Source: Georgenia sp. EYE_87
GTDB lineage: Bacteria > Actinomycetota > Actinomycetes > Actinomycetales > Actinomycetaceae
DNA length: 64,000 nt
Assembly: GCF_023148685.1 (NCBI RefSeq)
Contig: NZ_JAHXNL010000003.1
Span: 1 to 64,000 of the forward strand
Reading direction: 5' to 3'
The first letter of the stretch is position 1, and every line of letters begins with the position of its first letter. The translations under genes and the position numbers were made by a program. Below are positions 19,289-41,514 of this stretch, one piece after another. Under the pieces are notes generated by a model. It did no database searches. It saw only the letters and a program-made list of their open reading frames with translations, and had not been told where the DNA came from.

Positions 19289-19290
19289 CC

Positions 19291-24028: not shown

Positions 24029-24094
24029 CCCCAGGGGTGCTCGATGCAGGGCACGTGCAGCCGGGGGGTCAGCTGGAACACCACCCCACCGCGT

Positions 24095-25317: not shown

Positions 25318-25326
25318 CAGGTCACG

Positions 25327-26094
25327 CTAGACACGGCCGGTCGTCATCGCGCGTCCTTCGCGCCACATGACCACCGCCGTGCCGACCAGGAAGACCGCGC
25401 CGAGCACGGCCGCCGGCTGCAGCACGAGGGCCGCCGGCGGCGAGAAGCCCGTGTAGGCGACGACGACGCTTCCAGGGAGCGCCCCGAGCCCCGCTATCAC
25501 GCCTACCCAGCCGAGCCATCGCGGGAACGTCCGGCCGAGCACCATGGCCAGCCCAACCATGAGGAACGCAACGCGGTTGAGGAGCTGGAAGAACGCACTC
25601 AGCCCCTTCTCGGTCCAGCGGACCGCTTCGGCCGCGAAGAACGCCGCCTGCCGGTTCGCCTCGGCGGCGTTGACCCACGTGTCCACGGCGCCTTTGAGCG
25701 CGACGCCGTCGACGGCCATCTGGACCGCGAAGACCGCGCCGACGAGCACGGCGGCGAGTCCTGCGACAACCGCGGCGGCGCCGGCGCCACCGGCCTGCCG
25801 GGCCAGGTGGCGGCTGAGTGCGACGACGCCGATGACGATGAGCAGCGTGCCCACGAACTGGCCGATGTGGACGGCGGTCCAGGCGTCCGATCTCGCGTAC
25901 TCGGCGAACGCGGCGGCCGAGTCGTTGGGGTCCGCCCGCGAGGGGTGCAGCAGCCCCATCACGACCTGCAGCACGAGCCCGAGAACGATCGTCACCGCCC
26001 CGAGCCGGAGCAGCGAACGGTCCTCCCCCACCGCCGGCGGCACCTGCCCGGGGCGTGGCCCCAGGTCACCCGGTCGTAACTCTGCCTTGCTCAT
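25327..26094 (-). CDS. Multi-pass membrane protein, DUF4386-like
   Basis: A 255-residue integral membrane protein with about six hydrophobic segments: near 28-45, 75-95, 110-130, 170-190, 195-215 and 220-240. A hydrophilic loop between the first two carries LHPSRADPND. The look is that of the DUF4386 group, which has no assigned function; I am not certain of the family. GGAGG is 7 nt upstream of the ATG at 26094. It ends only 10 nt before the start of the broken NhaA gene. Confidence 0.72.
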   Translation of the reverse strand: MSKAELRPGDLGPRPGQVPPAVGEDRSLLRLGAVTIVLGLVLQVVMGLLHPSRADPNDSAAAFAEYARSDAWTAVHIGQFVGTLLIVIGVVALSRHLARQAGGAGAAAVVAGLAAVLVGAVFAVQMAVDGVALKGAVDTWVNAAEANRQAAFFAAEAVRWTEKGLSAFFQLLNRVAFLMVGLAMVLGRTFPRWLGWVGVIAGLGALPGSVVVAYTGFSPPAALVLQPAAVLGAVFLVGTAVVMWREGRAMTTGRV

Positions 26095-26185
26095 GGCGGG
26101 ACCTCCCGACGGTGCGTGCCCGTTGGCGGCAACTGCCACCGGCAGTGTGCGCCCGGGAGGTGCGCGCGTCTACGTCCGCAGGGGG

Positions 26186-26476
26186 TCAGAGAGGCGTGAC
26201 ATCTCCGAGCAGCACCATTCCTTCGGGGTATTGGCCGTCGACGACCGCCTGCACCCGACAGCGGACCTCGCCCGCCCCGTCGCCGTGCACCTGGAGTTCC
26301 CGCGTCGTCGGGCCTGGGTCGGGACGGTCCGCGTCATCACCACGGTCCACGAGGTCACGTTCGTTGGCCGCTTCCGCATTCAGTCCGGCCGTGCGCAGGG
26401 CATCGAGCACGATGCGGAAGTCCGTCTTCGCCGTGTCGAGGTCCAGGAAGATCATCGGAACGATGTACCTCTCCAT
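26186..26476 (-). CDS. Small hypothetical protein
   Basis: A 96-residue protein with high-GC third codon positions like its leftward neighbours, so probably a real gene, but unrecognised. The N terminus MIFLDLDTAKTDFRIVLDAL suggests a beta-alpha unit, the middle is acidic and polar, and the end YPEGMVLLGDVTPL is hydrophobic. The start could be the ATG at 26476 or one 7 codons further in. It lies 91 nt upstream of the membrane protein gene. Confidence 0.45.
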   Translation of the reverse strand: MERYIVPMIFLDLDTAKTDFRIVLDALRTAGLNAEAANERDLVDRGDDADRPDPGPTTRELQVHGDGAGEVRCRVQAVVDGQYPEGMVLLGDVTPL

Positions 26477-26746
26477 GGGCGCCCATGCTCCTCGCCCCAA
26501 TGGTGGAGGCAACCTGGCCCAATGCAACGACCGTCGGGGCCGGGCGCCGACAACCTACGGCGGGAGTTCCCAGTCGGACAATCATGCCCAAGGACCGGCG
26601 CTTCGGCATTCTTCCACGAGAAACGGACAGCAGTCTGATCACAGGTTCTCGTGACCAGCGCACCTCTCGTTACACACGCAAGGGCGGAACGACCCGAATG
26701 CCGAAAGGTGCCCTGGTTCAAGTGCGTAGCTGTCACAATCGGAAGC

Positions 26747-27634
26747 ATGCTGACCGTTTCTGAGGACCTGGTGCTCCGCGAGGCGATCATGAATCTCCTG
26801 GCGTCGCGCACTGCAGAGGCTGGCGGGTTCCTCACACGCGCCGAGCTCAGCTCGTTTCCCGTGGGTAGCGAGACCCGGCGGCTGATCGATACATCACGCG
26901 GTATCTGGAACCCACGAGACCTCAACGCCACACTGTCGATCGTGAGCTCACCTGATGGTCCGTACGACGATCGAGACGTGGACGGAGGTCTGTTCCGTTA
27001 CGACTACCGGGCCGGCAGCACAGCGGGGGATAATACGAAATTACGTCGTGCCCTAGAGCTGCAGCTGCCTGTCATTCTGCTTCGAAAGTTCGCCACGGGG
27101 TCGTACGTCCCGATCTTTCCGGTATACGTTGTGGATGATGATCTGGCCAAGCGCCAGTTCGTCGTCGCGGTAGATGAGGCTCTTCGCTTCATTGGCCGGC
27201 CTGACGAACTTTCGGAAGTAGAACGCCGTTACGCTGAGCGCGTTACACGCCATCGTCTACATCAGTCGATGTTTCGGGGAATGGTGCTTCACGCGTACAA
27301 CGTCAAGTGCGCAGTCTGTCACCTGAAGCACGGCGACCTGCTTGACGCTGCGCACATAACGGCAGATTCCAAGGAAACAGGACTCGCGGTTGTATCAAAC
27401 GGTCTAAGCCTCTGCAAGATCCATCACGCCGCGTATGATCGGAACCTGATGGGAATTTCGCCCGACTATCAGGTCGCCATCAACCGCAAACTGCTTGACG
27501 AAGTCGACGGTCCCATGTTGAAGCATGGCCTGCAGGAGATGCATGGGGCCCGCATTGCGCTACCGCATGACACCAAAGCTCGACCAGATCCCGAGAGGCT
27601 GGCGCTACGCTTCAACACTTTCCTTTCGGTGTAG
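26747..27634 (+). CDS. HNH endonuclease, restriction-type
   Basis: A 295-residue protein with a C-terminal HNH nuclease domain. A zinc-binding pair CAVC lies at residues 188-191, LDAAHI contains the catalytic His, and SLCKIHHAAYD carries the Asn/His region. The long N-terminal domain (1-175) has no clear motif and probably recognises DNA. Similar layouts occur in HNH restriction enzymes. It is the first gene of the lower-GC accessory island and faces the cytosine methyltransferase across an ISL3-type remnant. It may be that methyltransferase's restriction partner or an independent defence gene. Confidence 0.83.
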   Translation: MLTVSEDLVLREAIMNLLASRTAEAGGFLTRAELSSFPVGSETRRLIDTSRGIWNPRDLNATLSIVSSPDGPYDDRDVDGGLFRYDYRAGSTAGDNTKLRRALELQLPVILLRKFATGSYVPIFPVYVVDDDLAKRQFVVAVDEALRFIGRPDELSEVERRYAERVTRHRLHQSMFRGMVLHAYNVKCAVCHLKHGDLLDAAHITADSKETGLAVVSNGLSLCKIHHAAYDRNLMGISPDYQVAINRKLLDEVDGPMLKHGLQEMHGARIALPHDTKARPDPERLALRFNTFLSV

Positions 27635-27637
27635 CGG

Positions 27638-27770
27638 CTGGCCGACGCAGAAGACCTCACCGACAAGCAGCTGAACCGGCTCATCGCCGCGAGGGCGGAC
27701 GACTAAGCCCGCCAGGCGGTCTACGTCGCCTGGTGCAGCGCCCAGGGTCTCCGGGCGGCCTACCGCACCA
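27638..27770 (+). pseudogene. Remnant of an ISL3-type transposase
   Basis: The + frame reads EDLTDKQLNRLIAARADD, a stop, then VYVAWCSAQGLRAAYRT. This resembles the segment of ISL3-family transposases that begins with a (L/W)TDKQ motif and continues with AW.CAQ.LR..Y. Only about 45 codons survive, with an in-frame TAA. No terminal inverted repeats were found. Confidence 0.55.
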
Positions 27771-27932
27771 CCGGCCTGGCCGGGGCGGGTGCGCCGACCG
27801 AACTCGCGAGCGGAGCGCGGCCTGCCCGGCGCGCTCGAGCCAGTAAGGAAAGGTCTCACGGCACCGCTTCAGGACACGCCAGGGAGCGACGGCGGCCCCC
27901 TGGCCACAACGAGCGCGCGCCGAGGTCAGTCG

Positions 27933-29087
27933 CTAAGCCGATCGCTGGAGCGGTTTGACTTCCGGGACAGGGAGGACACCTGCCTCAAGCAGTCGCCCCG
28001 TGAGAACTCGAGCGAGTGCTGGCGGCACGGCGTTGCCGATGATCACTGAGAGCTGAGTACGGGTGACGATGTCGTCGAACTGAAAGAAGTCAGGGAAGCC
28101 CTGGATGCGAGCCGCCTCGTGGGGCGTGAGCGTCCTTGGCTGAGAGGGGTGACCGTAGCGGCCCTGTCCCATGCTTCCGAACCCGCTGGTGATGGTTTGA
28201 GCGGGCAGGTCCCAGGACAGTCTGCCGTACATGGACACGTACGAGTGGTCGCCGCGGTGACACGGAGGTCGGAAGTGGTTGGGAAGGTTCACCTCGCGGT
28301 TGTTGATGAGCCACTGGATGCGTTGGCGATTCTCAGGGCTCATCCTCGACGGCCGGTCTATCCCCCGTGTGGAATCGATGTGCTCTAGGTCGCCGATCGC
28401 CCATCGAAGGTCGTGCACCGGCTCCGGCTCAAACTCAAGGAAGTCCGAGGCTGCGCCCCCACCGAGCAGGTCGCTCCGGACGGCGAGCAGAATGTGTCGG
28501 CGCCGCGTCTGAGGGATTCCGAGCTTGACAAGCTCAACCCGCATTGTCGCGACATCGTATCCCAGTGCCGTGAGGTGAGCGCTTGCGCGAGCCACAACCT
28601 GCTGCGAGTCGTGAACGACCGCTGGCACGTTCTCAATCACCAAAACACGCGGTCTCAACACCTCGGCGGCACGGGCCATCCGGAGGTAGAGACGGTTCTT
28701 GGGGTCGTCTCTGCGGGTGTGGTTGTTGAGGTTGCTGTGGCCCTGGCACGGCGGGCCGCCTATGAGGAGGTCGACCTCGCCAACTTCTTGCCTTGTGACA
28801 CTCTCGGTCTGCGTCGGGGTGGCACCGAGATCCCCGTCAAAGTAGCTTTCGACGGCCCCTACCTGAACATTTGCTTCGGGAAAATTGGCCCTATATACGT
28901 CGACCGGTGCCTTGTCGAAGTCAAGGGCAAGCGGGACCTGGAGGCCGAGCCCACGCTCATGGGCGGCTTGCGCTACCCCAAGCGTCAGGCCTCCGCAGCC
29001 TGCGAACAAGTCGACAACGACGAGCTGCTGCTCGCCACGCTCGAACTCGGGGCGCACGCGCTCGCGAAGGGGATGCTCGGTGACCAT
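27933..29087 (-). CDS. DNA (cytosine-5) methyltransferase
   Basis: A 384-residue C5-cytosine DNA methyltransferase. Motif I is DLFAGCGGLTLG (26-37), motif IV GGPPCQGHS with the catalytic Cys at 114, motif VI VIENVPAVV, motif VIII QTRRRHILLAVR, and motif X GNAVPPALARVL near the C terminus. The target recognition domain lies between about 260 and 315. It methylates cytosine in a specific site in host DNA, using S-adenosylmethionine. It diverges from the three-gene ATPase operon across a 254-nt gap, and an HNH nuclease lies on its other side. Proposed role: marking self DNA for that ATPase module or for the HNH nuclease. Confidence 0.92.
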   Translation of the reverse strand: MVTEHPLRERVRPEFERGEQQLVVVDLFAGCGGLTLGVAQAAHERGLGLQVPLALDFDKAPVDVYRANFPEANVQVGAVESYFDGDLGATPTQTESVTRQEVGEVDLLIGGPPCQGHSNLNNHTRRDDPKNRLYLRMARAAEVLRPRVLVIENVPAVVHDSQQVVARASAHLTALGYDVATMRVELVKLGIPQTRRRHILLAVRSDLLGGGAASDFLEFEPEPVHDLRWAIGDLEHIDSTRGIDRPSRMSPENRQRIQWLINNREVNLPNHFRPPCHRGDHSYVSMYGRLSWDLPAQTITSGFGSMGQGRYGHPSQPRTLTPHEAARIQGFPDFFQFDDIVTRTQLSVIIGNAVPPALARVLTGRLLEAGVLPVPEVKPLQRSA

Positions 29088-29341
29088 GACCGTGCCCCCC
29101 CTCTGCTGCGACCAACTATCTGACCGAGACGCAGCCTACTCGAGCCGCAGGCGTGTTGGGCGCGGCGAGCGGGCGGGTGTGGACAATGCGGCGAGGCGAA
29201 TCCCGGCAGACTTCAGGCGCCGGGTCGGCACGCTGTCAGGTGCAGGCCGCAACGCAGTCCGTGCCCTGCGATTGCTGGGCAGTCGGATCCCATAGGCTTC
29301 CATTGCGGAGATGCACGCTCGACGGCGAGGAAGTTCACTTT
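29088..29341. other. Divergent control region between methyltransferase and ATPase operon
   Basis: 254 bases between the two starts. It must hold both promoters. I see no strong palindrome, and no C-protein-like gene is nearby. Confidence 0.4.
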
Positions 29342-31174
29342 ATGACGCTCGTGATCAACAAGCACGTCCAACGAATCCGGCGGTACCAGCCGTTTGACGT
29401 GGACTCGACCGAGATGATCTACGAGCTGCAGGAGGATCGCGAGCAGCCCCTGTACCCGGTGGTGACGCTGGAATTCCTGTTGCACGCCATCGAAAGTCCC
29501 ATGGTGAGAATCGTCGTGCTCACGGGCGACGCCGGTCACGGCAAGACGAGCTTGTGCGCCAGCGTGCTCGGAAGGCTGCGTGCGGGTTCGGAGCAGGTAT
29601 CCACTGAAATCCAGAGAGAAGTGTCTCAGGATCTGCGCACTACGGGAGTCACCGCCGACCGGCCCGTCGGGTCGACTCGTGCCGGCAGGCCACTGTACGT
29701 TCTCAGCGACCTGAGCGCGTTCACGCCTGGAGAAGGCGCCCGCAAGTTGGTCAACCTCCTCGAACTGCCTGACAACGGTGTCGCAATCGTCTGCGCGAAC
29801 GAGGGCCAACTCCGGAAGTGCGTCGCGGCGGAGAATGCGTCAGACGGCGACGACCGCACGCGTTTAAGGGTCTTGGTGACGACCTTGACCGAAGGCGTCG
29901 AGCGGGGGCAGGTCAGAGATTTTGACGGCTCGGCGATCGTCATCAACCTCAACTACCAATCTGTTGCAGCCGACGGCGGAAACGGCGGACTCGTCCGATG
30001 GGTGCTGAAGCAGTGGAACCATAGAGGAAAGTGGAAGTCATGCGACTCGTGCGACGCGCGTGACATCTGTCCGATCCTCGCAAATCACAGAGAACTTAGT
30101 GACAACATCCGAGGACCGCAGAGACAGGAGGCGGTACGCGATCTTTTTGCTGCTGCCGAACGCTCGGGTGCTGTCGTCACTACACGCCAAGCTCTATCCG
30201 TTTTAAGCTACATGGTCACCGGAGGTATCTCGTGCGAGTCCGTTCACGCGAAATACCGCTGGTCGCGTTTGGACACGACGTGGCAAGCACCTCACCTGTA
30301 TCACCAGTCGATCTTTGGGGATCTACTTAGCCAGAGTGATCGCCACCTCGTTCCAGCATTCCTCGCCCTGCGGCGCCTAGACCCTGGCAGGGTCTCGCGT
30401 CGTCAGGTAGACGACCAGTTGGACCAGGAGAGTGCTGGGACCTTCGGGCCGCGAGACCCCAGCAGCGCCCCCCAGAGGGTCCGGACCGCACGTGACGCGC
30501 AGAAACGGGCGGAGCAACTGCGCGCGCTGTACACGTTCTTGCGCCGCCTCGACTTCTTCGACAACGGTGATCGGACTAACCGGTTTGCTCGCATGGGTCT
30601 CTTAGCTGGCGACGACTTCGTCAGGGTTCAGGACAAGGATCGCGACCCATCCGACACCAAGGTGCGAGATCGATTCCTGAAGGGCCTCGAGGCAGTTCAA
30701 GGGGTCCATCGAGCTGGTAGCAACCCTGACTTCTTCGTGCTTGACCCGGCCTTCTTTGCACATCGCGCTCAAGCAGTCGTGCTCTCTCGACGGGTGTCCA
30801 GCAAGGGAATTGAGGTCGTTGATCAAACCACTCAGTGGCAAGCAGAGGGTGCACGGGTCGGTGTGGTGCCGGAGATGCACGACGCCGTTGAATGGCTGAA
30901 CCGCGCCATCTACATCCGCATCCCAGCAGTGGGCCTTAACCCCGGAACCGTGTCGCTTGAGGCGGACCTCCTGCGCTTCGAACTCCTAACGCGCTGGGCC
31001 GCTGGCTTGCGGAGCGAGGTGCAGCATGAGGCCGAGATTCGTGGTCTCACTGGCGCCCTTGCGGACTTGGCCGACACTTCCAACGGGGAAGATGAAATTC
31101 AAGTGCTAGTTGGAACCGTGATGAGAAAGCTCATGATCGACGTCGGAGACAAGATCAGATCGGTGCGTGCTTGA
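29342..31174 (+). CDS. P-loop ATPase with Cys cluster, DptF-like first gene of defence module
   Basis: A 610-residue protein. Walker A is GDAGHGKTS at residues 62-69, preceded by a hydrophobic strand RIVVLT. A Walker B-like strand YVLSDLSAF lies near 120 and a sensor-like VAIVCANEGQL near 147. A cysteine cluster C234-x2-C237-x5-C243 is followed by PILANHREL; a [4Fe-4S] or zinc site is possible. The second half has no clear domain. AGGAAG is 8 nt upstream of the ATG. It overlaps the next gene by one base. Size, order and partner genes resemble DptF of phosphorothioate-linked restriction, but the assignment rests on architecture. Probably an ATP-driven sensor or loader within the complex. Confidence 0.7.
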   Translation: MTLVINKHVQRIRRYQPFDVDSTEMIYELQEDREQPLYPVVTLEFLLHAIESPMVRIVVLTGDAGHGKTSLCASVLGRLRAGSEQVSTEIQREVSQDLRTTGVTADRPVGSTRAGRPLYVLSDLSAFTPGEGARKLVNLLELPDNGVAIVCANEGQLRKCVAAENASDGDDRTRLRVLVTTLTEGVERGQVRDFDGSAIVINLNYQSVAADGGNGGLVRWVLKQWNHRGKWKSCDSCDARDICPILANHRELSDNIRGPQRQEAVRDLFAAAERSGAVVTTRQALSVLSYMVTGGISCESVHAKYRWSRLDTTWQAPHLYHQSIFGDLLSQSDRHLVPAFLALRRLDPGRVSRRQVDDQLDQESAGTFGPRDPSSAPQRVRTARDAQKRAEQLRALYTFLRRLDFFDNGDRTNRFARMGLLAGDDFVRVQDKDRDPSDTKVRDRFLKGLEAVQGVHRAGSNPDFFVLDPAFFAHRAQAVVLSRRVSSKGIEVVDQTTQWQAEGARVGVVPEMHDAVEWLNRAIYIRIPAVGLNPGTVSLEADLLRFELLTRWAAGLRSEVQHEAEIRGLTGALADLADTSNGEDEIQVLVGTVMRKLMIDVGDKIRSVRA

Positions 31175-32619
31175 TGGCCGATCGTTCAAAGGCCGAGGTG
31201 GTTCTGCGCCTCTTTGGGGTGAACCTTGAGGAACAGGGGCGTGGCTTCTATGTTGCGCTGGAGATGCTCGCGATCGCGCGAGGTGTCTACCTTGCTAATA
31301 ACGATGACCCAGATCAGTTCTCGGGACTCTTGGACGACACCACAGCCACGGTGACCTACAGCAGGACGTCGCACGACCTTGCAAGGCGGATTGCTACTGG
31401 CACGTCCATCGTGGAAGGTGTCGAGGAGCTCGGCAAAGCCGTCGAACTTGAGGACTCCGAGACGGTCGAGACGCTTCGTGCGCTCTTCTCATCTCTCCTC
31501 GTACAAGTTCCGGGACGGCGGACCCAGCCGAGCTGGTTCGGTGCGCACATCTACCCGTTCGTTGGCGAACTGATCCATTACGACGCAGCCGACCGACGGA
31601 TCAAGAAGAGCGACAAGAGTTCGACGAGCTCGAAGAAGCGCGCGCAGGCGGAGCTTGTTCCAGCTGATGTGAATGCCCCGAACATCGAGAGGTACAGGTT
31701 CCGGGGTGGCGGAGCCTGGGCGTATGAGGTTCTGCGCCGTGACGAAGACATCACTCGTAAGGCCGCCGCACGACGCGGTCTTACCGACTTGGTTGGCGAC
31801 AGCGGCACTCCGCTGGGCAATCTGGCAAGGGCTCTCAGTGCGCATGACTTCGACTACGACGAGTCACCGTACGTAGATGACGGTCCGAAGGACCTGGTGT
31901 TGCATGAAGACCTCAGCCCATGGCCGGGCCTGCTTAGAGAGGGTGTGCACAACATCGTCTCAAGGGTGAACGTGCCTAGGGCAAAGAGAACCGAAAGTCT
32001 GATGCACTGGGTTCCGTTCTGCCTCGCACGGCACCAGCTTCACCTCGCCCGGCTCAAGGTTACTGGCGCGGGTCGGGAGTCGCTTCTGCTGGACTTCGGA
32101 AGCGAAGCGACCCCTCTTCGCCGTCGGTCACAAAAGGACCTCTTCGATTTCCGGAACGACATCGTTAACGCGATCAACGCGCAGGCCAAGGAGATGATCG
32201 CGGAGGCCGGTGGTGACGAGCAGAAGGTTCAACGCTACGAAAAGTTTACGAGGGAGAACGGGACGGCAGTCACCTCGCCTCGTGGGTTCTTCACGGAAAC
32301 CATGGCCGCAATCGGAGCGCTCAATGCTCCGGTCGGTCGGCGCCACTTCACGATGAAGCCACCAATGCTTGAGGCCTTGGTATCAGCCACGATTCCTCAG
32401 GACGCTGAGATGGAGTTCGGGCGATTCTGTGCCGTGCTCTACGAGAAGTACAGGATCGTGGTGGAGGACAAGGTTGCGATCCGTGACCCGTTGGCTTATG
32501 ACGTCGACCCGTCCTTCTTGAATCGCAACGGTGAGGCCTTCAAGGACAGGCTGACCGCAATCGGTTTGCTCACGCAGTACTCAGACGCAACCAGCATGGT
32601 CCGAGGAGAACCCCGGTGA
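31174..32619 (+). CDS. Uncharacterised middle protein of defence module, DptG-like by position
   Basis: A 481-residue soluble protein with no motif I recognise. The N-terminal half is mixed alpha/beta. A Lys/Ser-rich linker lies near 145-160, and the C-terminal 150 residues are helical with a final segment (ALVSATIP to LTAIGLLT) that reads like a winged helix. The ATG overlaps the TGA of the upstream ATPase (TGATG), and its own TGA overlaps the next GTG by 4 nt, so the three products should be made in fixed ratio and probably form one complex. Position and size match DptG between DptF and DptH; sequence homology could not be tested. Confidence 0.6.
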   Translation: MADRSKAEVVLRLFGVNLEEQGRGFYVALEMLAIARGVYLANNDDPDQFSGLLDDTTATVTYSRTSHDLARRIATGTSIVEGVEELGKAVELEDSETVETLRALFSSLLVQVPGRRTQPSWFGAHIYPFVGELIHYDAADRRIKKSDKSSTSSKKRAQAELVPADVNAPNIERYRFRGGGAWAYEVLRRDEDITRKAAARRGLTDLVGDSGTPLGNLARALSAHDFDYDESPYVDDGPKDLVLHEDLSPWPGLLREGVHNIVSRVNVPRAKRTESLMHWVPFCLARHQLHLARLKVTGAGRESLLLDFGSEATPLRRRSQKDLFDFRNDIVNAINAQAKEMIAEAGGDEQKVQRYEKFTRENGTAVTSPRGFFTETMAAIGALNAPVGRRHFTMKPPMLEALVSATIPQDAEMEFGRFCAVLYEKYRIVVEDKVAIRDPLAYDVDPSFLNRNGEAFKDRLTAIGLLTQYSDATSMVRGEPR

Positions 32620-35600
32620 CACATCGCAGTACCCAAGTCCTGGGCCGCTTCGTCGGCGACGAAGCCCTCCGAAGGATCGAAGAGAACACCGGACCACTCG
32701 CTGTCTTGCGAGTCGGCGGGTTCGACGAGGCCACCGTTTCAGAAGCGCTCCGGCACGTGGCTGTGCGTCTGAAACGTGAGCCTGGACTTGACGTACTCGT
32801 CAAGGTCGGCACTGCCGAACTCATCGAAGGTGTTCCCGATTGCTACCTTCTGGGGCCTAACGAGCAGTTGACCACATGGCGGAACAGAGGTACCGGCGAC
32901 GGGGTGCTGCTCTTCGAGTGGGCTGACCCGCCGGACGCACAAGGCCTTGCGTCGATGAATGCCCTGACGGATGGCACCATCCTCGGCGGTCCACAAGACG
33001 CCAGTAGCCATCAGATATTCGACAGGTTCATGGCAGAGGCCTGGCAGGAAGCCGGCGGATCGGGCGCGCTCCCGGCGGTAATGGCCGAGACGTTGTCTTC
33101 CATCTGGCGAGCGATCCCAAGTGACGAGTCGCGGTCGCTGCGTCGCTGGGCTGACTTCCTTGTCGACACCGCTCGCGCTGTGGCTGACCTGCAAGTCCGG
33201 ACGGCGGATCGAGTGGAAGCCGCAATCTCCGCGATGCTGCCAGCGCTTGATCTATTCCCGGACCGTGACCTCTTCGTTAAGCCCGCAGCTCTGGAAGCAC
33301 GGGTCAAGAAGAACGTTTGGGTGAGCGCCTTCAAGCAGCCAAACGGCAAGGAGATCACCGACGACGATTTGCTCGATCGTATTGGTGCGATTGAGTTGAG
33401 CGAAGAATCCTTGGCCCATGTGGGGGTGGACTCGAAGACCGCCAAGGAGCGAATGCGCGGATTAGTGTTGAGTCGTGGCGGACGCGACAGGGAAACACGT
33501 CGCCACCTCCGCAGCGAGCAGGACCTCATCCTGTGGTTGGAAATGTTCGAGCACAAGTCAAAGAGGCTCGGACTCGGCCAACAGCTCCGCCAGGAACTCG
33601 AGAAGAACGCCCCGAGTCGCGTCGACGAGTTTGACGCGATGATGGTCGAAGGCTCCCTCGACAGCGGCGACCAGGAGGCCGCGCAACGGTTTCTCGATGA
33701 AGCACCCGCGAACGGCCTTGACGCACTCGCTGACTTGGTGAACAAGCGAGCTCGCCGGAAGGTCGAGAAACTCGCGTATCCAGATTCACAGTTTGTTCAG
33801 GATCCGCTGCGGGCTCTGCTCCGCGAACTCACGTACTTCTCGGACGAGAACGAGGGCACGGTCGTCGTCGGCTTAGAGGGAGATCGGGAGTCTGGGCGGT
33901 GGAGCCGTTGGCTGTTCGCTTTCCTTTACTCCCGAACCTTGCAGGACATCCAGCTCTCCACGGGGCTGCGACTGTCGCTTGAGGTCCGGGACTGCCTGCT
34001 GGACGTGACGAGGCCCGAACTGCACGAAACGGATCAGAACGAGCCGGCCGATCTCTTCGACGCGACGAGGGAGTGGGCGCCGCTCCGGATCGTCGTCGAA
34101 ATGGAGGGAGGTGCCCAGCGCCGATTTCGGTGGGACCCGCTCGGGATCCCCGGGCAGATCGCGTTCGCCGCCCTCATCCTTGGATACCGAACGATCCCTG
34201 GCCAAGTCTTTGACCTGACTTTCGATTCCTTTCTCGATAATTTCAACGACCCGCAGCATTGGGACGTCGACGCTCCGATCCCGAGGAGCCACTACGCCAG
34301 CGAAATGGAAAAGCTCAAGAGGGAGCATTTCCTTCGTCTTACCGATGGGCTCGACTCGGAAAGGCTTGACGACTATGTAAGCGACTGGGAGGGCATCATA
34401 CGAGAGGCCCGAAGCGTTCTTGTACCGCAGAACGCTCCCGATCGGGACCTTGATGCCGTTGTACTGAGCGATGTCGTAGGGCTCGCCGACCGTCGCCTGA
34501 TGATGCTGGGTACGCATCCGCTGAAACTGCGCTGGTTCGCTCGCAACTACGAGCACGTCGCCACGAGCCTTAAGACCGCGCTGAACGAAGAGGGGGGTCT
34601 GCGCCTCAACCGGGAGAACGAGGACCTCTACTTCGATGCTCTGGACCGGGTGTCGTCCCACGGAACGCCGGCGGCCGTGGTCGGTCCAGGTGGAACCATC
34701 GCAATCCCGATGCGGGAGTCGGCTGGGCATGAGGAGTATGCCCCCGTCAGGCACGCCGGAAACGAATCGAAAGAGTGGCTTTCAAGCGTCGACGACGCGG
34801 CGATCGACGAGATGGTTCGAGTCATCACCGACTATCTGGCGACCTATCCGCACAAACTCGACGGTCTGCGGGTCTTGCTGCTGAACCGCAACGGCGATCC
34901 GGCGCTTCCCCTGCGGGTTGCGAAGCAAGTTCGCTCCAAGCAGCCCGGACTGAAGCTGGACTTGGTCGTCCTCGCGCCTCAGGCCACCCACCACGAGATC
35001 ATCCTCGGCTTCGATCTGCAGTTCTCAGGTGCCGAGATGTCCGGGGATAGATTCCTTCCGGATCTTCAACTCATCTTGCAGGCTTGGGAACCTGAGCAAA
35101 GCGCCGACTTGGCGGGTCTACAGGACTCTATCGACATCGCACTCGCGCCAGCACTATTCGGTACGCAGACGAGCGTCAAGGAGAGTACGAAAAAGGCGTC
35201 GCTCTCCGGTTACTTCGACCCATGGAAGCATGCGGCGGCCCATAACCTCGCTCAGACGCGCGAGAACGTCGTTCGGGCGCTGTTGCCGGAGATTGCAGAC
35301 GAGACGCTTGAGTCGTGGTCCACCCTCTGCGTGCGCTATGACCGACGATCTCCGGTCTCGTACGAGGGAGTCGACGGTATCGATTACTTCGAGATGCAGG
35401 TTCAGTTCGACCAGCACCAAGAACTGTTCACCGATTTGCATCGCGTAGCGCATTGGGTCGTCACCCTCGACAGCTTCATCGGCCGAGAGCAGATCGATTC
35501 GCTGCACAATCGCCCGGACGTAATCCTTGTGAAGCCTTCCGTTGGGAAAAACGAGTCGTACACGCTAATCGTCAGCTCACAAACGGGCCGTAAGTTGGTT

Positions 35601-37622
35601 GTCCAACGGCTTCGTCGGCGTCTCGAGAGCATCAATGTCGTCAGTCCGCCCGAGTCCGAGGACACAGCGAGGCGAATCTATGAGGTTGGGCGGAACGTGG
35701 TGCCTGGGGCTGTTCTCCGCTCCCTCGGTATCGGGACAACGGTCAATGAGATTGTTGGTCTCGTCACCACGCGGTTCGTGATCAGCCAGCAGTTCCCGGT
35801 TTCGGCGGAGGCTACGAGCCTCGTTTCGTGGATCAGCTTCGACGAGCACCATCGCTGGTTTGGCCGCGGGCACAAGACGCGTGCCGATCTGGGACGGTTC
35901 GTCCTTACGGTGCAAGACGATGACTCGGTTCGCCTCGACGTTCTGGTCGTTGAATCGAAGTTCCGGCAGAGCTTCGAACTCGGGACTGCGCAAGAGCAGC
36001 TCAACCGAACGACCGACCTATGCATGGATGCCTACCGATCTGACGGTGAGGCGCGTCATGACCGCCCGTTCTGGCTCGATGAACTTGCAGCAGCAATCGC
36101 GCAGACGAGCGGGGATCGTGTCGGTGCATCCGAGTTGCCAGCGCGCATGGTTGTCGGTAGCGACCCACAGGTTGAAGCGAAGGTCCTAGACGCGCTGCGA
36201 TCCGGTGAGGTCCAGCTTGGGTACGTCCGGGGTGTCGCTGTCGCGATCGCGGCGGATGACGACCACACAGCCCGGCGTGGCGGGGCGCTTGGCCCTCATG
36301 ACGTGGTGCGGGTGAACCGCCGCGAGCTTGAGAGGCTCATCGGAGCTCTGCGGGCGAAGCAGTCACCTTCTGAGGCGGAACCGATTATCGCGCCGGAAAT
36401 AGTCTCGGGTCGCGCAGGGCGGCACCCTGCCACGCCAGCCGAAAATCCCGCCGCTGAGGAGTCGACCGCTGTACTGCCCGACTATGACAGCGAGGCGACA
36501 GAGTCGACGGGGCTCACCGGCGTGGAAACGGGCCGCGAGCCGGCAATCGCGCCAAGAGTGGTCGCGGCGGAAGGCATCGGCGAGAACGAACTCCGGAACA
36601 GGTACAACAAGGTCGTCGACGTCTTCGCGCGACACAGGGTCGGTGTCACTGCACCAGAGATAGGAAAGTGGCAAGAGGGCCCAGGGTTCTACGTCCTGAG
36701 ATTTATCCCCCAACCTGGAGTAACGGTCGACAAGTTGACCAACAGGCGCGACGAGATTTTCCTTGCGCTGGCACTTCCGTCGGGCTTCAGCATCCGAACC
36801 CGGAGCGACCGGGGGGCCGTGCTGTTCGAGATACCCAAGATTGACGAAGAGAAGTACGGGGTGGACGCCGCTCGGCTCTGGGAGCAGTGCCCGATCGACG
36901 CGGAAAGCCTTGTCACCCCGCTGGGTGCCGACATTGAGGGAAACCCCGTCAGTATCGATCTGTCGTCTGCCGACTCGCCTCACCTCCTCGTAGCCGGCAC
37001 GACCGGTTCGGGTAAGTCAGTAGCGCTCGAGACGATCCTCAAGGGCCTAACCCGATACGACCCTGGGATGTTGCGTCTCAGACTCGTGGACCCCAAGGGC
37101 ACCGAACTGGTCGACTTCGAAGACGACCCGCACCTTGACGGTGTGATCGGCATGGACGCCGCCGACGCTATCGAGATGCTTGAGGATGCCGTTGGGGAGA
37201 TGGCAGAGCGATACCAGGACATGAAGGCGGTTCGCGCCCGCAAGCTCGCGGAATATAACGCGGCCGTCGAGCCTCAAGACCGAAAGCCTTGGATCGTAAT
37301 CGTCCTAGACGAGTACGCCGACCTCACGAGCGACCCCGAGGAGAAGAAGCAGATCGAAGCGCTACTGAAGCGCTTGACGCAGAAGGCAAGAGCCGCAGGA
37401 ATCCACGTCATTACGGCCACGCAGCGACCGAGCGCGGACGTGATTTCGACAACGATCCGATCGAACTTTCCTGCCCAGCTCGCACTACGAGTCAAGTCTG
37501 CTACGGAGAGTCGCATCATTATCGATGAGACAGGTGCAGAAGCGCTAGCGGGGCAAGGCGACGCATTCCTGCACACCGCCAAGGGAACGGTCAGGGTGCA
37601 GGTCGCCTACGAGGGAAGCTGA
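32616..37622 (+). CDS. Giant protein with C-terminal FtsK-type DNA motor, DptH-like
   Basis: A 1668-residue protein. About the first 1,300 residues have no recognised catalytic motif and are mixed alpha/beta. A Pro/Glu-rich linker (about 1250-1310) leads to an FtsK-like unit: a beta domain (FIPQPGVTVDKLTN, LALALPSG) and then the RecA-type motor. Walker A is GTTGSGKSV near 1461-1468 and Walker B IVIVLDEYADL near 1562-1572. The segments ITATQRPSADVI and NFPAQLALRVKSATESRII closely match FtsK/SpoIIIE. The DNA-sequence-reading gamma domain of FtsK is absent. The start GTG overlaps the preceding stop. Architecture fits DptH: a large recognition body with a hexameric DNA translocase. Proposed role: ATP-driven recognition or processing of DNA lacking the host mark. 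Confidence 0.75.
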   Translation: MTHRSTQVLGRFVGDEALRRIEENTGPLAVLRVGGFDEATVSEALRHVAVRLKREPGLDVLVKVGTAELIEGVPDCYLLGPNEQLTTWRNRGTGDGVLLFEWADPPDAQGLASMNALTDGTILGGPQDASSHQIFDRFMAEAWQEAGGSGALPAVMAETLSSIWRAIPSDESRSLRRWADFLVDTARAVADLQVRTADRVEAAISAMLPALDLFPDRDLFVKPAALEARVKKNVWVSAFKQPNGKEITDDDLLDRIGAIELSEESLAHVGVDSKTAKERMRGLVLSRGGRDRETRRHLRSEQDLILWLEMFEHKSKRLGLGQQLRQELEKNAPSRVDEFDAMMVEGSLDSGDQEAAQRFLDEAPANGLDALADLVNKRARRKVEKLAYPDSQFVQDPLRALLRELTYFSDENEGTVVVGLEGDRESGRWSRWLFAFLYSRTLQDIQLSTGLRLSLEVRDCLLDVTRPELHETDQNEPADLFDATREWAPLRIVVEMEGGAQRRFRWDPLGIPGQIAFAALILGYRTIPGQVFDLTFDSFLDNFNDPQHWDVDAPIPRSHYASEMEKLKREHFLRLTDGLDSERLDDYVSDWEGIIREARSVLVPQNAPDRDLDAVVLSDVVGLADRRLMMLGTHPLKLRWFARNYEHVATSLKTALNEEGGLRLNRENEDLYFDALDRVSSHGTPAAVVGPGGTIAIPMRESAGHEEYAPVRHAGNESKEWLSSVDDAAIDEMVRVITDYLATYPHKLDGLRVLLLNRNGDPALPLRVAKQVRSKQPGLKLDLVVLAPQATHHEIILGFDLQFSGAEMSGDRFLPDLQLILQAWEPEQSADLAGLQDSIDIALAPALFGTQTSVKESTKKASLSGYFDPWKHAAAHNLAQTRENVVRALLPEIADETLESWSTLCVRYDRRSPVSYEGVDGIDYFEMQVQFDQHQELFTDLHRVAHWVVTLDSFIGREQIDSLHNRPDVILVKPSVGKNESYTLIVSSQTGRKLVVQRLRRRLESINVVSPPESEDTARRIYEVGRNVVPGAVLRSLGIGTTVNEIVGLVTTRFVISQQFPVSAEATSLVSWISFDEHHRWFGRGHKTRADLGRFVLTVQDDDSVRLDVLVVESKFRQSFELGTAQEQLNRTTDLCMDAYRSDGEARHDRPFWLDELAAAIAQTSGDRVGASELPARMVVGSDPQVEAKVLDALRSGEVQLGYVRGVAVAIAADDDHTARRGGALGPHDVVRVNRRELERLIGALRAKQSPSEAEPIIAPEIVSGRAGRHPATPAENPAAEESTAVLPDYDSEATESTGLTGVETGREPAIAPRVVAAEGIGENELRNRYNKVVDVFARHRVGVTAPEIGKWQEGPGFYVLRFIPQPGVTVDKLTNRRDEIFLALALPSGFSIRTRSDRGAVLFEIPKIDEEKYGVDAARLWEQCPIDAESLVTPLGADIEGNPVSIDLSSADSPHLLVAGTTGSGKSVALETILKGLTRYDPGMLRLRLVDPKGTELVDFEDDPHLDGVIGMDAADAIEMLEDAVGEMAERYQDMKAVRARKLAEYNAAVEPQDRKPWIVIVLDEYADLTSDPEEKKQIEALLKRLTQKARAAGIHVITATQRPSADVISTTIRSNFPAQLALRVKSATESRIIIDETGAEALAGQGDAFLHTAKGTVRVQVAYEGS

Positions 37623-37802
37623 ACCTGGGGCGATCAAACTCCGCGCCTGTGCTGCGATGGTGCGGCAGAACGAGGCTGCCGGGGCTGGCCAGTATCTCGC
37701 TGTGCCTCTACAACCTGACGACGTTGTACTTCGACCTGAGTTTGGCCACCGTGTCGCTTCCCGGCGAAGTGCAGCGCGCTGACCTGGGGTGATGCGCTGG
37801 TG

Positions 37803-37824
37803 TTAGTGCGTTTTCACGCACTAA
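37803..37824 (+). terminator. Hairpin downstream of the defence operon
   Basis: A perfect 9-bp stem (37803-37811 with 37816-37824) and TTTC loop, 180 nt after the operon's last stop. It could end the transcript or mark an element boundary. Confidence 0.5.
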
Positions 37825-37887
37825 GGGGTCCTCTACTCTCGCCGTGTGGCCTGAGTTGGCTCACGGGTGGACGCACCGTCATCGGCC

Positions 37888-37946
37888 GGTCGATCACCCG
37901 CCGGACCGTCTCCTCGGCGTTGTTCTGCACGTGCCGCATGTACGCC
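37888..37946 (-). repeat. 59-bp fragment of a HyuB-type gene, second copy of 42594-42652
   Basis: 57 of 59 bases match 42594-42652 in the HyuA-HyuB gene. The minus frame still reads AYMRHVQNNAEETVRRVID. Sequence on either side is unrelated. It is a stranded piece of a related gene or the scar of a rearrangement, 4.6 kb from the full copy. Confidence 0.85.
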
Positions 37947-38040
37947 GAGATCATTCGGCACGCTCGACCGCGAAGAGCCACATTAGGGACGGAGACGCTA
38001 AGTTGCCTCAGTGGGCGAGAACCAGCACTCAGGGGGCGAA

Positions 38041-38370
38041 GTGGGCGATCAACGCGAGTGGTCATCTGAGCCGGACCCGGCGTTCGAAAGTGCGGCCGAG
38101 TCCTGGCGATGGGCGGAGGAGAAAGCGGAGGGCCACGTCTATTGGGTGAAGTCCGGTACGTGCCCAACATGCGGACACACCACCAGCAAACGCCTCTCCG
38201 GCGGCGTGTCGTACTTCCGCTCACGAAAGGCACTGCCCTGGCGGCGGAAGCGGGCGTCGTCCCGGAAAGTGCTAATCGCATGCGATTGTCGCATGTCGCA
38301 CCCTGGGCGTCCGGAAGGCGAGGGCCATGCCGGATGTGGCCAGGCAGCCTGGATTGCGAGACCGACATGA
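38041..38370 (+). CDS. Zinc-ribbon-like small protein
   Basis: A 109-residue protein with a Cys-rich core: TCPTCGH in the middle, then ACDCRMSHPGRPEGEGHAGCG near the end, seven Cys and His positions suited to one or two zinc sites. The N-terminal part is acidic with a WRWAEEKAEG helix. AGGGGG lies 4 nt before the GTG at 38041; another GTG at 38011 would add 10 residues. Its TGA overlaps the ATG of the membrane protein gene by 4 nt, so the two are coupled. No function is assigned; it may be the cytosolic partner of that protein. Confidence 0.65.
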   Translation: MGDQREWSSEPDPAFESAAESWRWAEEKAEGHVYWVKSGTCPTCGHTTSKRLSGGVSYFRSRKALPWRRKRASSRKVLIACDCRMSHPGRPEGEGHAGCGQAAWIARPT

Positions 38371-38951
38371 CCGTCACCGCGTCAACCCGGACCCACGTCA
38401 CGAGTGAGGATCTGCGTTGGGAGCGAGAGGCGGAAGACCTCCGGCACGGTGCCGTACTTCGTGTCCACTCCACGGCGTCCAAATGGCTTGCCGCTAGTGC
38501 ATCGATAACCGGCGTGGCTTCGGTCACCGGCCTCCTCAGCCCCGGCGCGCTCGCCGCGCTGGAGGAGACGACGCGTGACTGCGTTGTAGCATTGCTCGGC
38601 CTGGGTTTGCTCATGGCGTTCGCTGGTCTAGTGCTCGCAAGCTTGGCCAGCCAGGGCACGCCCCGCTCGATGGAAATTCTCGATGGCGTCGCATTGAGGA
38701 ACCACGTTCAGCGGCGCTCAAGCGTTGCCGCCAAGCAACTGCGCGTGTCGCGATTTGTGGTCGTTGCCTCCACGGTGATCCTAGCCGCGGCCGGACTCAT
38801 CGTCGCAATTACGCCGCCACAGCCCCCTAAACAGCTGTACCTGCTTGTGACGGACTCCGGGCGCGTTGCATGCGGTGAACTTAGCGACCTAGGTGCTGCT
38901 GGGAAGGGCACGGTTAACGTTCGCTCCCTCGCCCCCGTACCAGCCTGCTGA
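38367..38951 (+). CDS. Membrane protein coupled to the zinc-ribbon protein
   Basis: A 194-residue membrane protein, unrecognised. A charged N-terminal region (1-40) is followed by two hydrophobic segments (about 47-67 and 72-95), a basic cytoplasmic stretch (SVAAKQLRVSR), a third segment (VVASTVILAAAGLIVAI, about 130-148), and a short extracellular tail with two Cys residues. Two-gene units of a small cytosolic protein with a helical membrane protein are common in phage defence, where the membrane part acts as effector; that is only a suggestion. Confidence 0.65.
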   Translation: MTVTASTRTHVTSEDLRWEREAEDLRHGAVLRVHSTASKWLAASASITGVASVTGLLSPGALAALEETTRDCVVALLGLGLLMAFAGLVLASLASQGTPRSMEILDGVALRNHVQRRSSVAAKQLRVSRFVVVASTVILAAAGLIVAITPPQPPKQLYLLVTDSGRVACGELSDLGAAGKGTVNVRSLAPVPAC

Positions 38952-39088
38952 CGCAGTGCTAGGCGCGGAGGCCTTTAGTCAAGGGCCGGCAGTCAACCGA
39001 AGATCGATACCGACTCGCCGCGAGCTCGCACGCGGGCGCGCCACAGGTGTGCAAGGATGCGAACGTCAGGCTTGAGGAGGAGCGCACC

Positions 39089-39541
39089 ATGCCCGTACTA
39101 GCAGCGGCTAGAGCGGTTCCCCGGATCCAGTCCCGGCACACCCATCGATCGGACGTGCTCAGAGATGCATCGCGACTAACCGAAATCAGCAGAATCGCAG
39201 ATGACGCGCAACTCGCTCTCGTTGCGGTCCAGCACGGTCGGCCGACGCCGAATGATAAGGCGGCGCTCAATCGTGTCCTCGAATTGCTCAAAGCGCTCAA
39301 CACCTACGAGGCCGCCGCGCCCGAGTCGAGCGTTGCGTCGCGCATGCGAACAGCCGCGCCATGGCTTTTGGTCGAAGAAGTGGCGTCGGAAACTCATCGC
39401 CAACGGCAGTTGCTGCCAACACTCTTGCAGGAAGCCTTGACCGGAAGCGTGTCCGACGACCCAGAGAATTCCCTCTCGACCTTCCTGGAGCACCTCGCTG
39501 ACGCAGCATTGCGGTTGGCGACTGAGAAAATGCGATCCTGA
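39089..39541 (+). CDS. Small helical protein, first gene of protease/deaminase-like operon
   Basis: A 150-residue protein, predicted mostly helical, unrecognised. It opens MPVLAAARAVPRIQS and later carries a Leu-rich stretch (NRVLELLKALNTYEAA) that could form a coiled coil. GAGGAG lies 6 nt before the ATG at 39089. The next gene starts 6 nt after its stop, so they are probably one transcript. It may be an adaptor or substrate for the metalloprotease downstream. Confidence 0.6.
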   Translation: MPVLAAARAVPRIQSRHTHRSDVLRDASRLTEISRIADDAQLALVAVQHGRPTPNDKAALNRVLELLKALNTYEAAAPESSVASRMRTAAPWLLVEEVASETHRQRQLLPTLLQEALTGSVSDDPENSLSTFLEHLADAALRLATEKMRS

Positions 39542-39547
39542 CACTAA

Positions 39548-40822
39548 GTGTTCCCAATAGCACTGGACCACATCCGAATCATCGTGCAGTCGCGCGCCGA
39601 TGAACTTGACGGAATGCTGGATTCCACGAGAGCCAAACAAGACAGTGCGCACGTACGGCTGTTCAAGCGCCAAGCGGCAATAATCAGGTCGCGCCTTAAT
39701 GGCATCCCCACGGTTCCGCAAGAAACACACGGGATGAAGGTTGCTTTCCGCGAACTTCACCGCCTCTTGAACGAGTTGGACACACTTCATGAGACGTTCA
39801 GTACTTACCGGGAAGATCTGAACTCGGCACATCCGGTTGGCCTTCTCTACTTAGCCCGATCAGTTGTGCACGACCTCGCTGAAGCGCCGTTGGATGTCCG
39901 CACCGAGATTTTGATACACACTGACGCTGCCCGAAATTACTCCGTACAGAATCTTGCAGAATTGTTTGCGGACGGCTTCGAAGTTCCGTTAATAAGCCCA
40001 GCGGGTACTGACCGGCTCGTTGACGGGGAGATGCCAATTGTTCTCGGCGTCCCCGCCTTCGACCCCTATAATGCTTTCCTAGCACCAATCCTGGCCCACG
40101 AGGTCGCGCACTTAGCAACCGATATTAGTCTATTGGCCCTATTGGAAGAACAACTCGGGCAGGTCCCGTCGACGGCGCTACTCTCGGACGAAGTCGACAG
40201 TCGGGGAGTTCGCTCAGCGAATGCCCGTCTCTGGCGGTGGCTCGAGGAGATCCTATGCGACAGTCTTGCGGCATGGGCGACCGGACCGTCGTGGCTATTC
40301 GCCCTCGCTGCATTCCTTCCTGTCCCCAGCTCTGCCGCTGACGAGCATCATCCGTCGGCAAACGTACGCACGGCCTGGGCCTGGCGAGCGCTTAAGCGTT
40401 GGGGCTGGGAGGACTTCATGCGGGCGAAGTTTCCCGAGTTTGTTGAGTTTGTATCGGGAATTGCCCTTGAGGATGCTCCCGATGACGATAGCCCATTGAA
40501 TGACCGTCTCTGGAAGTCCTTCGACGCCGTGATGAAGGTCGTCGAGAGCAGCGAAGCGCCTCGCCTGGATCCAACCGAATACGAAGCAACCGAAAAGCAG
40601 CACGGGTTGCAGGTGTCGTTCGAGCGTTCGTACATGCCGCCGGGGTTGGCGGCCGATCCGCCTGGTGCCTGGACGCTACTGCTCGCGGCATGGGTTGCGT
40701 GCGCGGAGAATTCAGGAATTGAGTACGTCGCAAGGACTGTGGCGAATCAACCATACAATCAATTTTTGATAAAGTCCTTCGAGCTGTCTGGCATTGCGCG
40801 AATATGGCGGACATTACCATGA
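39548..40822 (+). CDS. HExxH zinc metalloprotease-like protein
   Basis: A 424-residue protein with a zincin signature: LAHEVAHLATD with HExxH at residues 184-188, and a third-ligand candidate in LEEILCDSLAAW (E234xxxD238), as in gluzincins. No signal peptide is present, so it should act in the cytoplasm. The first 150 residues are helical; after the active site comes a long region containing several Trp residues. It starts with GTG at 39548 without a clear Shine-Dalgarno. Its TGA overlaps the ATG of the dCTP-deaminase-like gene by 4 nt. Cytoplasmic HExxH proteins in defence islands often cleave a repressor or toxin partner; that role here is inferred. Confidence 0.72.
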   Translation: MFPIALDHIRIIVQSRADELDGMLDSTRAKQDSAHVRLFKRQAAIIRSRLNGIPTVPQETHGMKVAFRELHRLLNELDTLHETFSTYREDLNSAHPVGLLYLARSVVHDLAEAPLDVRTEILIHTDAARNYSVQNLAELFADGFEVPLISPAGTDRLVDGEMPIVLGVPAFDPYNAFLAPILAHEVAHLATDISLLALLEEQLGQVPSTALLSDEVDSRGVRSANARLWRWLEEILCDSLAAWATGPSWLFALAAFLPVPSSAADEHHPSANVRTAWAWRALKRWGWEDFMRAKFPEFVEFVSGIALEDAPDDDSPLNDRLWKSFDAVMKVVESSEAPRLDPTEYEATEKQHGLQVSFERSYMPPGLAADPPGAWTLLLAAWVACAENSGIEYVARTVANQPYNQFLIKSFELSGIARIWRTLP

Positions 40823-41514
40823 CTATCCTAACAAGTGCTATGATTAAGAGCGCGCTTTCGGCCGAGACAATAGAAGACCGCTTAATCGTGACTCCGCTAC
40901 TCGAGCCTGACACGCAGATCGGACCTTCGAGCGTAGATCTTCGTTTAGGCACGGAGATCGTTGAGATGGATCGATACAACCGCTCAGCAAGCGACCCGAG
41001 GGCGGAGGATCCGCTGACACCGGTTCAGCGACGTGTAGTTGTGCCGCTCGGTCAGCGGATCGCCCTCCATCCCGGTCAGTTCCTGCTGGCTAGCACGCTC
41101 GAGTTTGTCCGTCTCCCGGCTTTCCTCGTGGGCCAGGTCCACGGAAGGTCGTCCTGGGGTCGTCTTGGGGTCCAGGTGGCAACCGCGGCCGCTGTACAAG
41201 CAGGTTACGCTGGCATGATCACCTTGCAGCTCACCAACGTCGCGACAGTTCCGGTGCATCTATACCCTGGGATGCGGCTCGCACAATTGTTCCTTTGGTG
41301 GGCAAATGAGCCTGCACCTACACCGTACGAGTCCGGCCGGGCGAAGTACCGATACCCCCTCGGTCCGCAAGAAAGCCAGATCCCTGCTGAGCGGGGAGAA
41401 CTCGCGAAGTTCGAGGAATTGGGACGCCGTCTTGGTTCGGCACAGCGGCGAAACGTCGGAGCGCCCGACAAAGAACCGGACGGGTTGCTCGACGAGCAGG
41501 GCGCTCCACTATAA
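40819..41514 (+). CDS. dCTP deaminase/dUTPase-fold protein with altered active site
   Basis: A 231-residue protein of the trimeric dCTP deaminase/dUTPase family. Motifs seen are IGPSSVDLRLG near 34, HPGQFLLAST, GRSSWGRLG at about 109-117 and the YPGMRLAQLFLW loop. With this start, Ser111 and Arg115 fall at the same numbers as catalytic residues of E. coli Dcd. The essential Glu138 of Dcd is replaced by Gln137 (ITLQLTN where deaminases have LEL), which should prevent deamination. A C-terminal tail of about 45 residues is extra. ATG at 40819 overlaps the protease stop; an ATG at 40804 is possible. It may bind nucleotides as a sensor or be a dUTPase-like enzyme. Confidence 0.78.
   Translation: MTILTSAMIKSALSAETIEDRLIVTPLLEPDTQIGPSSVDLRLGTEIVEMDRYNRSASDPRAEDPLTPVQRRVVVPLGQRIALHPGQFLLASTLEFVRLPAFLVGQVHGRSSWGRLGVQVATAAAVQAGYAGMITLQLTNVATVPVHLYPGMRLAQLFLWWANEPAPTPYESGRAKYRYPLGPQESQIPAERGELAKFEELGRRLGSAQRRNVGAPDKEPDGLLDEQGAPL

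Follow-up and report, generated by a model that had tools for sequence, protein, structure and literature searches.

A C5-cytosine methyltransferase paired with an SspFGH-like restriction module in Georgenia sp. EYE_87 and in related loci

The first 64,000 nucleotides (nt) of contig NZ_JAHXNL010000003.1 of Georgenia sp. EYE_87 (assembly GCF_023148685.1), hereafter the window, carry a gene for a C5-cytosine DNA methyltransferase that diverges from three overlapping genes, here called F, G and H. The locus is probably a restriction-modification system in which 5-methylcytosine (5mC) replaces phosphorothioate (PT) as the self mark of an SspFGH-type translocating nuclease, a role for 5mC that is suggested by genome context. 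The same FGH parts occur with a C5 methyltransferase in place of SspBCD, and on the economical reading 5mC would take the role of PT. The divergent arrangement had been described in a previous reading made from the letters alone (the sequence-only reading), and all four genes were recovered in place. That reading had also proposed 5mC as the self mark, with the modification half of the system swapped; a C5 methyltransferase is conserved beside FGH in relatives and no DndC or DUF4007 was found in the genome, both in agreement with the proposal, and the mark itself is a conclusion from context.

The pairing was assessed across relatives. A contig scan with the F alignment gave 123 confirmed relatives, the best 80 of which, ranked by likeness to the window F, were combined with loci L007, L008 and L010-L012 and the window to give 86 loci. 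Modification genes were searched with phmmer using single queries, and labels were assigned at self-set bit-score thresholds of 150 for N6-type methylases (N6), 45 for Ssp and 23 for C5. Nineteen loci were labelled C5, 38 N6, 12 PT (SspBCD) and one PT with a partial C5 match, and 16 were unlabelled, several of them cut contigs. Only one of the 51 loci labelled N6 or PT had a C5 match (L085, partial, at a contig edge). The clade of the window F (L013-L028) comprised 16 loci from 15 genomes of three phyla, the hosts being Streptomyces, Herbidospora, Nonomuraea, Cellulomonas, seven Pseudomonadota and a Desulforhopalus. The neighbourhood survey that the sequence-only reading had called for found a C5-type methyltransferase in 16/16 of these loci, at -2 to 1459 nt from FGH (nearest distance between open reading frames, ORFs), and neither an N6 nor an Ssp label in any of the 16. 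A pattern scan of the non-FGH ORFs of the C5 loci detected no amino-methylase motifs. The methyltransferase gene is upstream of FGH in some loci and downstream in others, occurs on either strand, and may be divergent from, co-directional with or convergent on FGH. Chance adjacency of F, G and H was ruled out, with same-order F-G-H trios recurring in the 16 clade loci. In a more distant pair of loci (L010 and L041) the C5 methyltransferase, F, G, H and a Vsr gene follow in a row, and the methyltransferase ORF abuts or overlaps the F ORF. A GmrSD-N (DUF262) protein (75.2 bits) is encoded near this operon at L010 5537-6538 on the minus strand.

The F tree was built from 55 rows: 18 of the 19 C5 loci (L018, a copy of L017, was left out), 13 with a PT label, 18 of the 38 N6 loci and 6 of the 16 unlabelled ones; L063 and L079 are fragments. 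L017 and L018 represent the same FGH-methyltransferase locus on two contigs of a Streptomyces carminius assembly, either a duplicate or an assembly artefact. A branch with support 92/87 (not starred) separates the 18 C5 rows from the rest, and a 16-row clade including the window is starred at 100/99. The F tree sorts by modification label, with 9 changes over 5 groups; the mean after shuffling was 29.3, and a value as low was obtained in 0/200 shuffles. A constraint that kept the 13 PT-labelled F rows in one group was rejected (p-AU 6e-5), from which nothing is drawn, as unlabelled rows that are possibly PT were counted as others. The H tree, made with a quick method, contained 47 rows (18 C5, 12 PT, 15 N6 and 2 unlabelled) and used the first 77% of each H ORF of at least 1500 amino acids (aa). 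The same 16 rows hold together in it at 100.

F, G and H match the SspF, SspG and SspH profiles, in the same gene order, and no match of the three window proteins to DptF/G/H or DndF/G/H models was obtained (PADLOC at E up to 1, NCBIfam at E up to 0.1); by sequence, the module is thus SspFGH-like. The sequence-only reading had named the genes after DptF, DptG and DptH. A restriction module of the Dpt/Ssp-FGH type stands, and the profiles that identify it are those of SspF, SspG and SspH (96, 52 and 323 bits). The link to Dpt consists of a weak fold match between G and DndG (E 0.25) and motif-level agreement with the published architecture of DndF and DndH. The discoverers of SspFGH reported no sequence homology to DndFGH (PMC8092258); the two are called homologues in a review (PMC12707154). 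The SspF profile matched 4/396 genomes of the phylum, including the genome under study. An SspF match was present in 17/17 aligned F proteins (window included), and a weak DndF match in 1/17.

Other modification genes were sought at several scales. The earlier claim that no DndA-E gene lies in the window is borne out for what was sought: SspA-D queries found nothing among the ORFs of window positions 20001-45000 (SspC and SspD sought locally only), and none of 10 neighbouring ORFs was identified as a Dnd protein by PADLOC. DndC had no match genome-wide, in a search in which control genomes matched below the cut-off only and DndA, DndB, DndD and DndE were not included. In 16 relative genomes DndC was over the cut-off in none, with one weak match below it and the controls likewise below. 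The SspB domain DUF4007 had no match genome-wide, and a positive control record with SspB scored 226 bits. The window methyltransferase is the sole PF00145 match in the whole genome.

Table 1. Features of the C5 methyltransferase-FGH locus (positions in the window).
Feature	Position	Strand	Evidence
C5-cytosine DNA methyltransferase, 384 aa	27933..29087	minus	PF00145 152.6 bits; PADLOC DruM2 366 bits; C5 motifs
Intergenic region between divergent methyltransferase and F	29088..29341	.	254 nt; presumably holds both promoters
F (SspF-like), 610 aa: P-loop NTPase and large variable C-terminal part	29342..31174	+	ATG at 29342; SspF models 96.3, 83.4 and 77.9 bits
Walker A of F, residues 62-69	29525..29548	+	G62, A64, G65, G67, K68 and T69 invariant in 17 sequences
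Cys cluster of F, C234/C237/C243	30041..30070	+	Invariant in 17 sequences
G (SspG-like), 482 aa, presumably the reader that binds DNA	31171..32619	+	SspG 52.4 bits, strongest over 390-477 in the C-terminal part
H (SspH-like), 1668 aa, combining a region of methyltransferase-like fold with a nuclease and an FtsK motor	32616..37622	+	SspH 323 bits
PD-(D/E)xK-type nuclease residues of H (D1091, E1113, K1115)	35886..35960	+	Invariant in 29/29 sequences
FtsK/HerA-type translocase domain of H, residues 1429-1664	36900..37607	+	PF01580; Walker A GTTGSGKS

The methyltransferase contains the C5 motifs FAGCGG, PPCQ, ENVP, QTRRR and GNAVP. The overlaps between F and G and between G and H are 4 nt each. 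When the region between the methyltransferase and F was aligned with those of 5 relatives, little conservation was seen except at the start of F, and no conserved operator upstream of F was visible. F has a CANEG motif that places an Asn at the presumed Walker B position, as does DndF, some versions of which also have a zinc-chelating lid insert (PMC10853773); the Cys cluster of F is possibly a zinc site in such a lid. F and G matched no Pfam family above the cut-off, F (610 aa) had no kinase match, and sequence searches of the PDB with the F and G alignments gave nothing useful. Viral contigs searched with F contained no relative, and tblastn of plasmids with F matched 2 plasmids.

G starts either at a TTG, giving 482 aa, or at the next codon, an ATG, giving 481 aa. 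Structure alignments used for modelling had 34 hand-chosen rows for G and 29 for H. The AlphaFold2 model of G (predicted local distance difference test, pLDDT, 85.9) was compared to 350,542 PDB chains, where rank 1 was 7exx, DndG, a triple winged helix protein, as a weak match (E 0.25, TM 0.29); against viral structures, nothing was found at E 0.001 or better. As a single-protein query, G found its own genome alone, both in the relatives' genomes (1/59) and in those of the phylum (1/396). In H, the Gln following the nuclease Asp, Glu and Lys is likewise invariant in 29/29 sequences, and the four residues together are consistent with a PD-(D/E)xK nuclease. The FtsK_SpoIIIE domain (PF01580) scored 123.9 bits over residues 1429-1606, and by the FtsK model (167.8 bits, under the equivalog cut-off) the motor is similar to cellular FtsK. 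A weak FtsK-alpha match (19.2 bits) was also under its cut-off; FtsK-alpha was found in DndH proteins of clade 2 by Rakesh et al. (PMC10853773). Residues 540-1290 of H were modelled with a pLDDT of 81.5, and the 50 Foldseek matches listed were mostly S-adenosylmethionine methyltransferases, several with probability 0.95-1.0; the best E value was 1.9e-3, and no match reached 0.001. The motif [DNS]PP[YFW] is absent from the window H. The fold matches would fit the catalytically dead methyltransferase domain that precedes the nuclease in DndH (PMC10853773). A sequence search of the PDB with H returned FtsK/HerA-type motors only, and of 968 rows from tblastn of plasmids with H, the 30 that were listed matched its FtsK part.

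The methyltransferases of the 16 clade loci are all of C5 type and fall into six groups (five without L024) with at most 33% identity between groups. They appear to be exchanged between closely similar modules: the FGH proteins of L015 and L016 are 86-91% identical to those of L014, and their methyltransferases share 28-29% identity with that of L014. For the Nonomuraea locus L016 the figures against L014 are 89-91% and 28%. L013 has both methyltransferase types. In the Nonomuraea genome a query with the window methyltransferase matched the FGH-side enzyme alone; in the Herbidospora genome (L015) it gave five matches, the best being the FGH-side one (130 bits), and none of the window type. Between L014 and L015, H is at least 74% identical in every 50-column window except at about 571-617 (58%) and in a linker at about 1259-1345 (64 and 41%), and this near-uniform identity gives no clear sign that a recognition domain was swapped along with the methyltransferase. 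The simplest readings are a target site shared by both methyltransferase types or an FGH that reads no fixed site. It is conceivable, though we hold it to be doubtful, that FGH is a modification-agnostic restriction engine paired with three self marks (PT, N6-type methylation and 5mC), that within the 5mC lineage it works with distantly related C5 methyltransferases while its readers show no visible change, and that it may sense the presence or density of 5mC rather than one fixed sequence, because the FGH proteins of L014 and L016 are so alike while their methyltransferases are not.

Vsr is a mismatch endonuclease that repairs the T:G mismatches arising from 5mC deamination. With one Vsr query, a homologue was detected in 12/19 C5 loci and in 0/67 others (Fisher p 3e-10, kinship ignored). 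The Vsr-like protein of L019 scored 92.5 bits where the Vsr model has its cut-off at 97.85, and that of L010 68.1 bits against a Pfam cut-off of 27.

We infer complex formation, nuclease action, the marking role of 5mC and phage defence from these data, as follows. The C5 methyltransferase would mark target sites of the host DNA with 5mC. F as a P-loop NTPase, G as a DNA-binding reader and H with a degenerate methyltransferase-fold reader, a PD-(D/E)xK nuclease and an FtsK motor would form one complex, which may load on DNA, translocate by means of the FtsK motor, and nick or cut. On host DNA the complex would be restrained by 5mC, as DndFGH and SspFGH are by PT, and unmethylated phage or plasmid DNA would be attacked. 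Where present, Vsr would repair T:G mismatches left by 5mC deamination. In the PT systems, SspFGH causes damage to DNA that lacks the modification and is toxic when PT is missing (PMC8092258), and DndFGH is a 2:2:1 complex with translocation-coupled nicking, whose ATPase is repressed by PT (PMC11662687).

Several points weigh against 5mC as the self mark of FGH or against a simple history of the pairing. The H tree places L010 and L041 apart from the other C5 rows, on long branches and with a long-branch-joining warning, so C5 coupling may have arisen twice; one or two origins are both possible. No Vsr lies near the window locus, one being encoded on another contig of the same genome. An N6_Mtase match (41 bits) on contig C38 makes another mark possible, SspD having been sought locally only. 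The weakest case among the clade loci is L024, with a methyltransferase of 23.7 bits and a PEC motif. In this Marinobacter locus an AspBHI-like modification-dependent endonuclease (18223-20415; PF18062, 200 bits) is encoded between the C5-like methyltransferase and H, and a Vsr is present too. Because the methyltransferase is weak and lies beside that endonuclease, it may belong to the latter instead of to FGH. Next to the window methyltransferase itself, an HNH gene (26651-27634, plus strand; GC content 0.58) ends 298 nt from the methyltransferase stop in the same low-GC stretch, and its product could be the restriction partner of the methyltransferase, the two making an ordinary type II pair with FGH as an independent neighbour. 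The HNH protein does match PADLOC HNH models (72.7 bits), one of them described as a type II restriction enzyme (38.0 bits), and its C-terminal part matches the phosphorothioate-DNA restriction endonuclease model NF045808 below the cut-off (64.8 bits, cut-off 180). Yet a search for it in the 86 loci gave one other match, a weak one (51.6 bits) in the non-C5 locus L080, and FGH is paired with C5 methyltransferases of six distant groups in 16/16 clade loci with varied layouts, so that we regard a type II pair as unlikely.

Rakesh et al. (2024, PMC10853773) have further argued that DndFGH stands alone and has no inbuilt modification module. Applied here, FGH would act against invaders on its own, with nucleotides, for example, as the triggering signal, and the C5 methyltransferase would be a regulator or a protection against a different enzyme. 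The intact Walker A of F fits such a system, and a stand-alone minority is possible among the 16/86 unlabelled loci. Against it, the F tree sorts by modification label in the sample used, and SspFGH needs PT to spare its own host (PMC8092258); as an account of the window locus it is decidedly unlikely. The sense of the mark could also be the opposite one, with FGH attacking phage DNA that contains 5mC or is otherwise methylated, or being activated by the mark as SspE is by PT. SspE and DndI do sense PT as a trigger (PMC11662687), and the enzyme in L024 shows that one locus holds a modification-dependent endonuclease. A co-encoded C5 methyltransferase would, however, turn the host into its own target, and the SspFGH that was tested attacks unmodified DNA (PMC8092258), which makes this highly improbable.

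One of the closest known systems is SspABCD-SspFGH (Wang et al. 2021, PMC8092258), with which the locus shares F, G and H by profile and order and an SspH-type C-terminal FtsK domain. L008 has the canonical SspABCD-SspFGH layout, and the window proteins are 24-25% identical to those of L008. The difference is that SspB, SspC and SspD were not found in the window stretch or in the other 18 C5 loci scanned, which have a C5 methyltransferase, often with Vsr, instead. With DndFGH/DptFGH, the partner of DndABCDE (PMC10853773), the locus shares the three-gene order, a P-loop F with an Asn at Walker B and a Cys cluster, a G best (if weakly) matched by the DndG structure, and an H with a possible methyltransferase-like fold, a nuclease and an FtsK-like ATPase; it differs in that the window F, G and H have no sequence match to Dnd/Dpt models and that no Dnd modification gene was found in a partial search. 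Cytosine methylases are known to stand in for PT modification in the Dnd-related CxC-DndE systems (PMC10853773), a point repeated in PMC12839542, but there the methylase accompanies a CxC ATPase-DndE core and not FGH (PMC10853773).

Relatives including L007 and L012 are N6-methylase loci with a kinase-fused F, G and H, and were likened to MADS by composition, not by MADS models. MADS is reportedly a methylation-associated system, credited to Maestri et al. in 2024, with an N6-type methylase and a kinase-fused F beside G and H. The MAD7 and MAD8 models match the window G and H weakly or by the motor only, whereas the N6 loci are about 20% identical in G and form a separate branch in the F and H trees. 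MADS membership was rejected: F has no kinase match, the locus has no N6 methylase label, and MAD7 scores 15.7 bits against a cut-off of 410. Druantia type II was considered because DruM2 is the top PADLOC model for the window methyltransferase, and was rejected because PADLOC recognised no Druantia protein among the 10 neighbouring ORFs scanned. PMC10853773 does not use the words Vsr, MADS, SspFGH or SspH in its main text. No description of FGH with a C5 methyltransferase was recognised in the available parts of the literature searched (including PMC10853773, PMC12839542, PMC12904381, PMC12707154, PMC12926258 and PMC11842806), from which subscription papers and preprints were mostly absent.

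The locus lies in DNA of lower GC content than its surroundings, with 0.58-0.63 by parts over 26651-41514, 0.68 to the left and 0.71 to the right; further low-GC stretches occur rightward at about 52-58 kb. Both sides of the locus, the left flank (24076-26520) and the right-hand hydantoinase gene, can be aligned to the same-genus genome G002, where they enclose 4.9 kb of different DNA; defence genes seem to have used this insertion site more than once. The corresponding site in G002 (L103 13185-17839) encodes a NERD protein and a PLD-ResIII-DUF3427 helicase and is likely a defence hotspot. A search for direct repeats in 23000-42200 gave no convincing attachment (att) pair. Just downstream of H, a 77-nt stretch (37871-37946) repeats part of the hydantoinase gene (41758-45309) with 92% identity and is possibly a relic of insertion. 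The same low-GC stretch encodes a dCTP deaminase (40804-41514, plus strand; TIGR02274 137 bits, over the cut-off), which no PADLOC model matched; dCTP deaminases are known as antiphage enzymes. The deaminase gene is overlapped by that of a 424-aa protein (39548-40822, plus strand) with an HEVAH zinc-peptidase-like motif and no Pfam, PADLOC or NCBIfam match, and the two may form a separate defence unit.

A DNA-cutting trio known from bacteria that mark their DNA with sulfur is thus found, here and in distant relatives, beside a methyl-cytosine marker, which suggests the same engine with a different self mark. How the FGH complexes of Dnd and Ssp systems recognise their own DNA when PT sits on just some of the sites is a question that a natural version apparently using 5mC would allow to be tested directly, 5mC being installable by cloned enzymes and mappable by standard sequencing. 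If true, the coupling of 5mC to FGH would argue against FGH as a stand-alone system and for one restriction motor that, across phyla, was joined to more than one chemistry of DNA marking.

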